Source: Chlorobiaceae bacterium (GTDB taxonomy: Bacteria; Bacteroidota; Chlorobiia; Chlorobiales; Chlorobiaceae). From it: a stretch of DNA of 57,946 nt. This document shows positions 7,335 to 11,305 of this stretch, one piece after another. The position numbers and the translations under genes were made by a program. The notes under the pieces are model-generated. The model did no database searches and was not told the origin of the DNA. It saw only the letters and a list, made by a program, of their open reading frames with translations. Positions within the stretch are counted from its first letter, which is position 1, and each line of letters begins with the position of its first letter. The stretch is taken from NCBI GenBank assembly GCA_013335405.1, contig JAAXVR010000018.1, forward strand, positions 1-57,946, given 5' to 3'.

Positions 7335-8098
7335 CCTATCTCAGCCGGATACTCGAAGAAAAACAGCGGGAAGTTCGGGAGCTGAAAAAAGGGAAGCCCC
7401 TGCAGCGTTATGAAGAACTTCGTCTCTCTCTCGGTCCTGCAAGGGATTTCAGGGGTGCCATTTCCGGAGGGAACGGCGCGTTACGTCTCATCGCCGAAGT
7501 CAAAAAGGCTTCGCCTTCCCGAGGGGTCATCGTTCAGGATTTCGATCCGGTAAGGATTGCCGGGAGGTACCTGGATCTTGGCGCCTCCGCTTTTTCGGTG
7601 CTGACCGACCGGATGTTTTTCCAGGGCTCGGACGACTATCTCGTCAACGTAAGGCAGGCCTGTCCGCTGCCGGTGCTCCGCAAGGATTTCATCGTGGACG
7701 AGGCACAGATTTTTCATTCGCGACTCATCGGAGCAGACGCAATCCTTCTCATCGTCGCCGCACTCCAGAGCATACAGCTTGCGGATTACCTTCAGATTGC
7801 TGCCGCCCTTGGCCTCCATGCACTCGTGGAAGTGCACGACCGTGGGGAACTCGATACGGCGATAGAGAGCGGCGCAGGCATCATCGGTGTGAACAACCGG
7901 GACCTGCGGGATTTCTCCGTCAGGCTTGAGACTTCCATTGCTCTTCGCCCCTTCATTCCTTCCGGTGTCGTCGCGGTTTCCGAAAGCGGCATGAAGACCC
8001 GGGCCGACATCGACCTCCTGAAAGAGGCCTCATTCGATGCGGTTCTTATCGGCGAAGGCCTTCACACGAGTCCCGAACTGCGGGATATCACCTGGTAA
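7331..8098 (+). CDS. trpC: Indole-3-glycerol phosphate synthase TrpC
   Basis: TrpC closes the indole ring in tryptophan synthesis by decarboxylating CdRP. The 255-residue TIM barrel shows the expected signatures: [13 protein letters not shown] (phosphate and catalytic Lys), [40 protein letters not shown] and VSESGM near the end, with IGEG for the phosphate. It is a stand-alone enzyme, not fused to TrpF. No other trp genes are nearby; instead its start overlaps the stop of carB by four bases, implying translational coupling. Its last 11 bases overlap the 3' end of rpe on the opposite strand. Confidence 0.96.
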
Positions 8099-8753
8099 TC
8101 GATTTTATTCCTGCTGCTGCAGCTGACGGATCGGATGCCCTGAAAAAAGCCGTTCCGGCAATCAGTGCGTCCGCACCGGCAGATACTACAGAGCCTGCGT
8201 TTTCTTCCGTTATACCGCCATCGACGGCAATGACCATGTCCGGGTTCATCTGCAGGCGCATGCTGTGGAGCTGCCGGATTTTATCGATCGACGAGGGGAT
8301 GAACTTCTGTCCTCCGAAACCGGGGTTCACCGACATGACGAGGACGAGATCGAGGTCGCAGAGGATCGCTTCGAGCACGGAGACAGGCGTTGCGGGGTTG
8401 ATCGAAACGCCGGCTTTGACACCGAAGCTTCTGATGAACTGAACGGTACGGTGCAGGTGGTTGCAGGCTTCCTGGTGCACCGTGATCTGGTGCGAGCCGG
8501 CCTTGACGAAATCTTCGATGTAGCGGTCAGGATCGGCAATCATCAGATGGGTGTCGATGATCATGTTCGTGCAGGATGCGATAGCCTGGACGATGAGAGG
8601 GCCGAACGTGATGTTCGGTACGAACGTGCCATCCATGACATCGCAGTGCATCCAGTCTGCGCCTGCCTTTTCGGCGATCTCGATCGATGAGGCAAGTCGG
8701 GTGAAATCGGCGGAAAGAATCGACGGGGCGAGAAGCGTGGATGTTGCCTGCAT
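8088..8753 (-). CDS. rpe: Ribulose-phosphate 3-epimerase
   Basis: This enzyme interconverts ribulose 5-phosphate and xylulose 5-phosphate. The 221-residue TIM barrel has the full set of family motifs: [12 protein letters not shown], the metal-binding [40 protein letters not shown] and the second metal Asp in VIAVDGGI. I use ATG at 8753; the frame is open to 8852, but the extra 33 residues are not family-like. The stop codon lies inside the end of trpC, giving an 11-bp tail-to-tail overlap. The Omp85 gene lies 76 bp upstream on the same strand. Confidence 0.96.
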
Positions 8754-8829: not shown

Positions 8830-11060
8830 TCAAAAAGCTTCGCCAATTCCAAAACTGAAGGTGAACTCCCCCGGCTTCCAGCGGTTGATCACCCAGGGAT
8901 CTGCTTCGGCGGGGTCATGCACCTTCCATGCGAAATCGAAACGGAACGGACCTACCGGAGAGCCCAGTCTCAATCCGACTCCCACGTCCCATGCGAAATC
9001 ATTCGTCAGGGATTTCAGGGTCAGACCGTAAGGACCGCTCCTGTCCCAGATGTTGCCCGTATCGGAGAAGAAGGTGATGCCTGATGGCTGGCCGAAGAGC
9101 TTGAAGAACTTCATCCTGTATTCGAGGTTGAGTTCGAGTTTGATATCGGCACCGAAATTCGAGGCGGCTTCGCTCGCGCAGCTTGCGGGTCCGAGGGTGT
9201 TGAAAAGCCATCCACGCATGCTGTTCGAGCCGCCGGCATAGAAGCGGCGTTCTTCGGGAGTCGATTGCGCTTTTCCCCAGGGACTCATGTAGCCGGCGAG
9301 AATTCTCCCGGCTATCTGTGTATCAGGTGTGAGATTTTTCGAGAGGCTTAACCCGGATTCGATTTTCATGTACTGCGAATAGGCCGTTCCGAAAATCTGC
9401 GGATCGCTTTCGGTGAATCCGTCGTAGGATTTCGTATCGGCATACTTGTCGAGAAGCCAGGGAAGGAGCCCGGCATGTTCGAGCAGGAGATCGAGGTTCA
9501 TGACTGTTTTTTCAGGCGCCACCTTCTGCCGGTTGGTGTAATTGTACCTGATGCGGAAGGTCTGGTTGATGCGGGTTTCGAGCAGGCTGTCTATGGCAGC
9601 CGCCACTCTTTCCGGCTTGTCGGGATCGATGCCGATGTTGCCCGCAAGCTCGCTTGTGAAGAGCTTCTTGAACCCTCTGATGGAATCCTGCTTGATCGAT
9701 TCGACCTCGAAAAAGTCGAAACTCATCCTGGAAGCATTTGTCAGTTTTGCGCTGTAGGAGCCCCTGAGCAGTGCGTTCCGGCTGGAAAGCAGCACAGGCT
9801 GTTTCATGCTCGAAAATTCTGCGGTCGCGGAATAGAAATTGCCTGGATGCTTCTTGACCGGCATGAGGAGCGTGCTTTTCAGCCGGAATTCGTAAGGGAT
9901 GATCCTGTCGTATTCATCCGGGGTGAGGCTTCCGAGCAGGCGGTCGCTGTAGCCAGCCTGTCTGCCGTACTCCACGGAGGTCTGGAGCTGTTCGGCGGCG
10001 CCGAAGAGGTTTTTGTTCTCGTATGCGAGCGAGCCTCCGTAAAAGAGCGCTCCATAGCGGTTGTCGAGGAGCAGTTTCGGTTCGAACTGATGTTTCGGTG
10101 CCGGTTCGAGGTGGAGGGTTGTACTGAGTTCTCCTGCCCTGACGGAATCGGGGTTGATGTAGATCGATGAAAACATGCCGGTTCCACCGAGGTTTTCGAC
10201 CGTTTTCCTTTCCAGGCTCTGGTTGGTAAGCTCTCCGGGCCTGAATCCGATGGCGGAGGTGATGAGAACGGGTGATACTTTTCCCCTGCCGAATATTTTT
10301 CCTTCGATCCTGTCCTTCGAAAATGTTTTTACACTATTCGAACTGTCGTTTTTAACGGGGTTGTGGACAACCACGTTTACCGGGCCGTACCTGACCTGAC
10401 CGGGCAGGTTTACCCTGAAAAGGACGCCGGCACTGGTTCCCGCAGTATCGATCCTGATACGGATGCTGTCCTGCTGGAAAAGCAGGTAGCCGTTATCCCT
10501 GAAAAACGAGACGCTCCTGTCGCGTTCTTCGATGAGCCGTTCGACGGAAAAGATGTTCTTTACGTTCAGTTTTCTCTGCCGGAGATAATTTTTCCTTACC
10601 GTTTCAGAGAGCGTCTCTATGCCTTCGTAGCGAAGCGAATCGATCCTTGAAGGCTTGTTTTCCCGGATGGTTATCTTCAGGTGGACTTTCCGGCCGTTCT
10701 CCTCTCTGACGATCGAGGTATCTATCTCGGCGGCGAAATATCCCTTGTAGGAATAGAGCTTTTTGATGAGGGCGATGTCTTTCTGGAAACTGTCCGAACT
10801 GAACGGCCTTGGTTTTGAGCCGAAGAGGCCGAGGCCGAGGAATGAGGTGGGCTCCGCGGTGTTTATGACCTGCAGGAGTTCATCGTCCTTGATGGCCTTG
10901 TTTCCCTTGATGGAAATTCTGCCGACAAACGGAACGCCGGGAAGGGCGTCCTGCTCTGCGGTAGCGATCAGAGCGCGGCAGAACAGGAAAAGCAGGAAAA
11001 CTGCGAAAATTAGGGAAGTTTTAACCCCGGAATGCCGGATTTTTTTTAAAAAAAAAACAT
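8830..11060 (-). CDS. Omp85/TamA-like outer-membrane assembly protein with an apparent frameshift in a T10-A8 run after the ATG
   Basis: The frame is open from just after a stop at 11083-11085 to 8830. It encodes POTRA-like repeats (GRISIKGNKAIKDDEL, RIDSLRYEGIETLSE) and then a C-terminal 16-strand Omp85 barrel ending in FSFGIGEAF. Barrel signs include RFYAGGSNSMRGW, the VRGY-type motif of strand beta-6. In that frame no ATG, GTG or TTG occurs until GTG at 10374, about 236 codons in. An ATG at 11058-11060 on the minus strand is followed by ten T and eight A residues and hits TAA after three Phe codons. One extra base in the run would give MFFF..KKIRHSGVKTSLIFAVFLLFLFC, a good signal peptide. 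Size (about 740 residues) suits TamA or a BamA relative. Slippage, frameshifting or a sequencing error are all possible. Confidence 0.8.
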
Positions 11061-11077
11061 ATGGGGCCGTCTTGCAG

Positions 11078-11305
11078 CTAGGTTAACAGTTCTTCGTCAC
11101 CGTATATGAAGTCTTCGTCGGTAGGATAGTCAGGCCAGATTTCCTCGATGCTTTCATACATTTCATCACTTTCGGGAAGGTCGTTGATGTTGTCGATCAC
11201 CTGCTGAGGCGCACCGGTGCGGTTTGCGTAATTGATCAGTTCATCTTTGGTGACCGGCCACGGAGCATCGGCAATATAACGGGCGAGATCTAAATTCCAG
11301 TACAT
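11078..11305 (-). CDS. Small acidic DUF2795-type protein
   Basis: The 75-residue product begins MYWNLDLARYIADAPWPVTK and has the DUF2795 pattern: a short helix, DELINYANRTGAPQQVI, then NDLPESDEMYESIEEIWPDYP. The C-terminal third is very acidic. Small proteins of this kind occur widely in bacteria and have no established function; a compact helical fold is likely. It sits 18 bp downstream of the M23 peptidase gene and 17 bp ahead of the ATG proposed for the Omp85 gene, so the three probably form one transcript. Confidence 0.8.
   Translation of the reverse strand: MYWNLDLARYIADAPWPVTKDELINYANRTGAPQQVIDNINDLPESDEMYESIEEIWPDYPTDEDFIYGDEELLT

Follow-up and report, generated by a model that had tools for sequence, protein, structure and literature searches.

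A gene for an outer-membrane assembly protein of the Chlorobiaceae, here called tamL, likely carries a programmed transcriptional slippage site directly after its start codon. Judging from orthologous gene starts across the family, the protein is probably made only from slipped transcripts. If so, a family-wide gene has been produced solely via polymerase slippage since the origin of the Chlorobiaceae. This would constitute an unusually old and simple slippage expression gate, with natural controls (relatives that lack the run) and a built-in comparison (dnaX), and cultured green sulfur bacteria and E. coli reporters would allow a direct test.

A start codon one nucleotide out of frame

The locus lies in a contig of 57,946 nucleotides from Chlorobiaceae bacterium (GenBank assembly GCA_013335405.1, contig JAAXVR010000018.1), hereafter the window. 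The relevant features, all on the minus strand, are as follows.

11078-11305, minus: upstream gene encoding a 75-amino-acid DUF2795 protein; its stop codon lies 20 nt 5' of the run
11060-11058, minus: pre-run ATG start codon, directly 5' of the T-run
11057-11048, minus: T10 run, the proposed slippage site; T9-T11 is kept in 47 family members
11047-11040, minus: A8 run (T10 A8, then TCCGG), outside the conserved feature
11046-11060, minus: zero-frame mini-ORF, Met-Phe-Phe-Phe-stop (ATG TTT TTT TTT TAA)
8830-11082, minus: tamL/tamA-like Omp85 open frame of 750 codons, with signal peptide, POTRA and Omp85 barrel; tamL coding presumably runs from the T-run onward
8088-8753, minus: ribulose-phosphate 3-epimerase-like gene directly 3' of tamL, from the open reading frame list and identified by eye

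The Omp85 frame is open down to 8830, as in the initial annotation, but its upper limit is 11082 rather than 11083. The stretch of about 236 codons reported to lack ATG, GTG and TTG proved to be exactly that long, the first such codon in the window's open reading frame list being GTG 10374. An ordinary gene caller would therefore return a truncated product of 514 amino acids that begins there, devoid of signal peptide and POTRA, and if the slippage reading holds, databases probably carry the TamL-like protein in this form or as a pseudogene. Directly 5' of the ATG at 11060-11058 the minus strand reads ...GACGGCCCCAT. Re-reading the sequence agreed with the earlier description of this ATG, which precedes T10 and A8 and, in the zero frame, meets a TAA stop at 11046 after three Phe codons. 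One added T or A places ATG 11060 in the Omp85 frame, joining it to the signal peptide and POTRA region as had been proposed, and a POTRA match is indeed present in that frame. T10A8 occurs once in the window, where shuffles expect 0, and separate T or A runs of at least 10 number only 13 in the 2.47-Mb genome.

Pfam places the POTRA domain (PF07244) at residues 52-141 and the Omp85 barrel (PF01103) at residues 568-750. Among all family models the best match is the NCBIfam model for TamL (NF052279; 298.8 bits, E 9e-89); this score is under the model's cut-off of 400 bits, and we therefore call the protein TamA/TamL-like. The same genome encodes a TamB partner (one PF04357 match, on contig C29) and two further Omp85 matches. 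TamL, the Omp85 protein of the TAM complex, is reported to be a lipoprotein in Bacteroidota and Chlorobi; by eye, the N-termini of the Chlorobiaceae TamL-like proteins contain no lipobox Cys and resemble ordinary signal peptides.

The T-run and the frame break recur across the family

We compared orthologous 5' ends, using tblastn against the conserved portion of the protein to fix each frame. A tamL-like protein was found in 60 of 61 Chlorobiaceae genomes and then, in a larger set, in 85 of 86, the sole genome without one being 84% complete. A T-run stands at the tamL start in 47 of the 85, spanning both genera and protein identities of about 51-79% and including five single-contig genomes (for example, T10 at 1578821-1578830 of G014). 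Run lengths are narrowly distributed (T9, n = 4; T10, n = 39; T11, n = 4), and the run is kept while the columns flanking it are about 50% identical. The T-run is absent from members of three further families in the order.

The start codon abuts the run in 40 of the 47 (ATG, 23; GTG, 16; TTG, 1), and the remaining seven have an ATG 6-18 nt 5' of the run that is open into it; every one of the 47 thus has a canonical start whose frame stays open into the run. This pre-run start is out of frame in 46, so that the out-of-frame start seen in the window recurs when related Chlorobiaceae are compared, a comparison that the initial annotation had called for. The only in-frame case is a T11 in an 80%-complete MAG (L089). 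Modulo 3, the change needed is +1 in 34 genomes, -1/+2 in 12 and none in one, and its direction flips between close relatives (L068 versus L069, L071 versus L078). The zero-frame peptide is four residues long in 30 of the 47.

Conservation does not extend to the whole T10-A8 tract on which attention had first centered. The T-run is conserved family-wide, but A8 is shared only with one near relative (L016), the other (L079) has C A7 and the remaining genomes differ; we therefore rejected A8 as part of the signal. In the relatives the stop codon of the DUF2795 gene lies 14-24 nt 5' of the run. This spacing suggests co-transcription with tamL, and we infer that an elongating polymerase probably crosses the run within an operon.

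The arrangement is otherwise sporadic. We checked 17 non-tamL sites in the family at which RTG is followed by T10; few precede a long frame, and no conservation was seen among them. At L181 (G061:C46) and L183 (G035:C65), RTG-T10 precedes a frame of about 290 codons that would require +1; each occurs in a single genome, and conservation was not seen.

The frame beyond the run is selected

Across about 300 codons, pairs with the run have a dN/dS of 0.05-0.25 and pairs without it 0.13-0.16; purifying selection acts on the reading frame in both groups. When read in the Omp85 frame, the 12 codons after the run have a mean net charge of +2.7 and no stop in any of the 47 genomes. Of the other two frames, one has a charge of 0.6 and contains stops in 30 of the 47, and the other has a charge of 0.1 and contains stops in 6. 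The charged n-region of the Omp85 frame precedes a hydrophobic stretch and an A-x-A-like end, the layout of a predicted signal peptide whose positive end lies just 3' of the run. Reduced synonymous change after the run was considered as a further signature and rejected: run-less genes show it equally, as an ordinary 5'-end effect.

Relatives that lack the run have ordinary starts

The run is absent from 38 of the 85 genomes, and 37 of these have an in-frame GTG or TTG start. A clade of 30 uses TTG (TTG GCA AAA GC and variants), L033 and L101 use GTG, and L039, L042, L050, L093 and L098 read GTG TTT TTT ATA, GTG TTT TCA or similar. The exception, L077, lacks a clear in-frame start and has a T7 a short distance 3' of the upstream gene. 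The run was lost in at least four lineages, and the tamL protein tree implies 5 changes of run presence and 10 of run state. Three of four independent phylogenetic contrasts agree with an association between run and out-of-frame start, and none opposes it; because such contrasts are few, the association is strong in pattern and not in formal significance.

Proposed slippage at transcription and its alternatives

In the mechanism we favor, translation would initiate at the ATG or GTG that precedes the run, and mRNAs with the templated number of U residues would terminate after a few residues (in the window, Met-Phe-Phe-Phe-stop). RNA polymerase slipping on T9-T11 would add or omit one U in a minority of the mRNAs, and in these the start codon would be connected with the signal peptide and all that follows it. 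The frame in the DNA would thereby fix the gene at reduced output. The comparison of 85 members supports the earlier suggestion that the protein may be made only by slippage, with no conserved role for its A8 part. That the slip takes place at transcription, its efficiency and selection for low or regulated output are inferred.

Transcriptional slippage is expected at an A/T homopolymer of roughly nine or more at a frame junction, and T9-T11 occupies that junction in 47 genomes; it is likewise expected at a conserved frame break with a selected frame beyond it, as seen here in 46 of 47 (dN/dS 0.05-0.25). The threshold for slippage on A/T runs is roughly 9 nt in many bacteria (PMC1088944), which fits runs that are either 9-11 long or gone. 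The need for +1 in some lineages and -1/+2 in others is what a polymerase slipping in both directions would produce. Slippage by the polymerase fits the run lengths, the tolerance of either direction and the absence of any RNA structure specific to the run. The literature searched, mostly without subscription journals, contained no earlier report of slippage at the tamL start run.

The main rival is ribosomal frameshifting, in which the ribosome would slip -1 (or +1 at TTT-TRR) on the Phe codons of the U-run just after initiation. U-runs are slippery for ribosomes; in T10 genomes of the +1 class a -1 slip on UUU UUU yields the correct frame, and in nine T10 genomes a +1 slip at the TTT before the stop codon would suffice. 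We nevertheless consider this explanation unlikely. Programmed -1 frameshifting is characterized by one direction, a slippery heptamer and, usually, a stimulatory downstream structure or upstream Shine-Dalgarno sequence, whereas here the needed direction changes between close relatives (L068/L069, L071/L078) with the design unchanged, and runs are at least 9 long or absent where a heptamer would do. A Shine-Dalgarno sequence does exist 5' of the run, but it is spaced for the start codon.

Nor did RNA folding set the run-bearing genes apart. The 65 nt after the run have a mean folding z of -1.7 relative to dinucleotide shuffles, compared with -1.2 in run-less genes; codon-aware z values are -0.88 with the run, -0.78 where it is missing and close to 0 in the window's clade. 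A downstream stimulatory hairpin was therefore rejected, since run-less genes fold alike and the excess is small after allowing for the encoded protein. A stem-loop does recur about 12-60 nt after the T-run (for example, in L024, L044, L087 and L089), with sequences that differ among relatives. It is built from codons of the n-region and h-region in run-bearing and run-less genes alike, and the encoded protein explains it mostly, though not fully.

Alternatively, translation could start elsewhere, at a downstream in-frame ATG, GTG or TTG or at a non-canonical codon, leaving the run as a leader element. In 21 of the 47 genomes, most of them Chlorobaculum-like (g2) or in the L049-L057 clade, an ATG that could serve without slippage lies in frame 1-20 codons 3' of the run. 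An in-frame GTG overlaps the upstream stop in L062, and L018 has one at a distance. Yet in 11 of the 47, the window's genome and ten others, the 40 codons that follow the run contain no canonical start (the window lacks one for 236 codons), and no shared near-cognate codon was seen. Shine-Dalgarno pairing averages -4.2 kcal/mol at the pre-run start, compared with -1.7 for background and a poor -1.3 for the best downstream in-frame start, and the pre-run start is open into the run in every case. The window's own pre-run ATG has weak pairing (-2.3), which counts against the slippage reading; even so, we regard initiation elsewhere as improbable.

Phase variation, the toggling of the gene by changes in DNA run length, had also been raised. 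Homopolymers this long do mutate, and run length varies by species (9-11). In a phase-variable gene, however, both on and off lengths should be common, and only one of the 47 genomes is in frame; the other 46 would be "off" despite purifying selection on the frame and retention of the gene in nearly all genomes. The dnaX run of the same family makes the contrast plain. An A9-A10 run is present in dnaX in all 30 family genomes examined, of which 21 are split, ending in the short gamma frame, and 9 are open and run into tau. Phase variation of tamL therefore appears very improbable. The remaining possibility, that the run reflects an error of sequencing or assembly or that the gene is decaying, merits next to no weight even though homopolymers are error-prone and the window's genome is a 62-contig draft, because the run and its out-of-frame state recur in independent assemblies, five of them single-contig, T10 is flanked by other sequence in the two nearest relatives, L016 and L079, and the frame is intact (dN/dS 0.05-0.25).

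Returning to slippage by the polymerase, the difference between dnaX (about one-third open) and tamL (1 of 47 in frame) suggests selection for the out-of-frame state as such, presumably to hold TamL at a low level, although about ten changes of run state are no proof. TamL has proved essential in two species of Bacteroidota (PMC12045153). For Flavobacterium johnsoniae, in which it is essential, the authors infer strict control at the protein level (PMC12045153), so that a requirement to limit its dosage is plausible. We tentatively propose, as one possibility, a start-codon slippage gate ancestral to the Chlorobiaceae that limits an outer-membrane assembly protein and may tune its output, for instance to UTP level or polymerase speed, unlike dnaX, in which both frames are tolerated.

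Comparison with known systems

The geometry of the tamL start has an engineered parallel. In pRSET-TriEX and lambda TriplEx, a dT run adjoining the start codon allows a downstream gene to be translated in all frames, and with dT14 all three frames were obtained at about equal level (PMC5855593). Those constructs differ in being engineered, in their dT14 and in their T7-promoter plasmid.

Among natural systems, slippage on A/T runs sets or restores the production of secretion components in Shigella (spa13, spa33, mxiE) and Citrobacter (tssM) (PMC5009743, PMC4256274). Unlike in tamL, these runs are intragenic (in spa13, after 58 codons), and a first product of considerable size is made. The Shigella and Citrobacter cases also have a narrow range, compared with a whole family for tamL. 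In insect endosymbionts, ancient homopolymer frameshifts have reportedly been kept by selection in functional genes (Wernegreen et al. 2010, cited in PMC3711429), as is proposed for tamL. Endosymbiont genomes are reduced and AT-rich and such runs are common in them, whereas runs of 10 are rare here (13 in 2.47 Mb).

A further comparison is with dnaX, for which transcriptional realignment is known from Thermus thermophilus and predicted for Chlorobi and others (PMC3711429). In the window's own genome, dnaX is split at an A10 outside the window (G000:C34:59481-59490, L007); 26 nt past the start of the run the gamma frame terminates, and the tau frame continues in another frame and matches the same family model beyond the run. 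Both genes, present in these same Chlorobiaceae genomes, have an A/T run of 9-10 on which a slip shifts the frame, and both keep the run while the encoded frame may vary. In dnaX the run lies late in the gene and the unslipped and slipped products are both functional; in tamL it is found at the very beginning of the gene, and translation without a slip gives just a few residues in most genomes. The frame varies in dnaX (21 split, 9 open) and is nearly always out in tamL (46 of 47).
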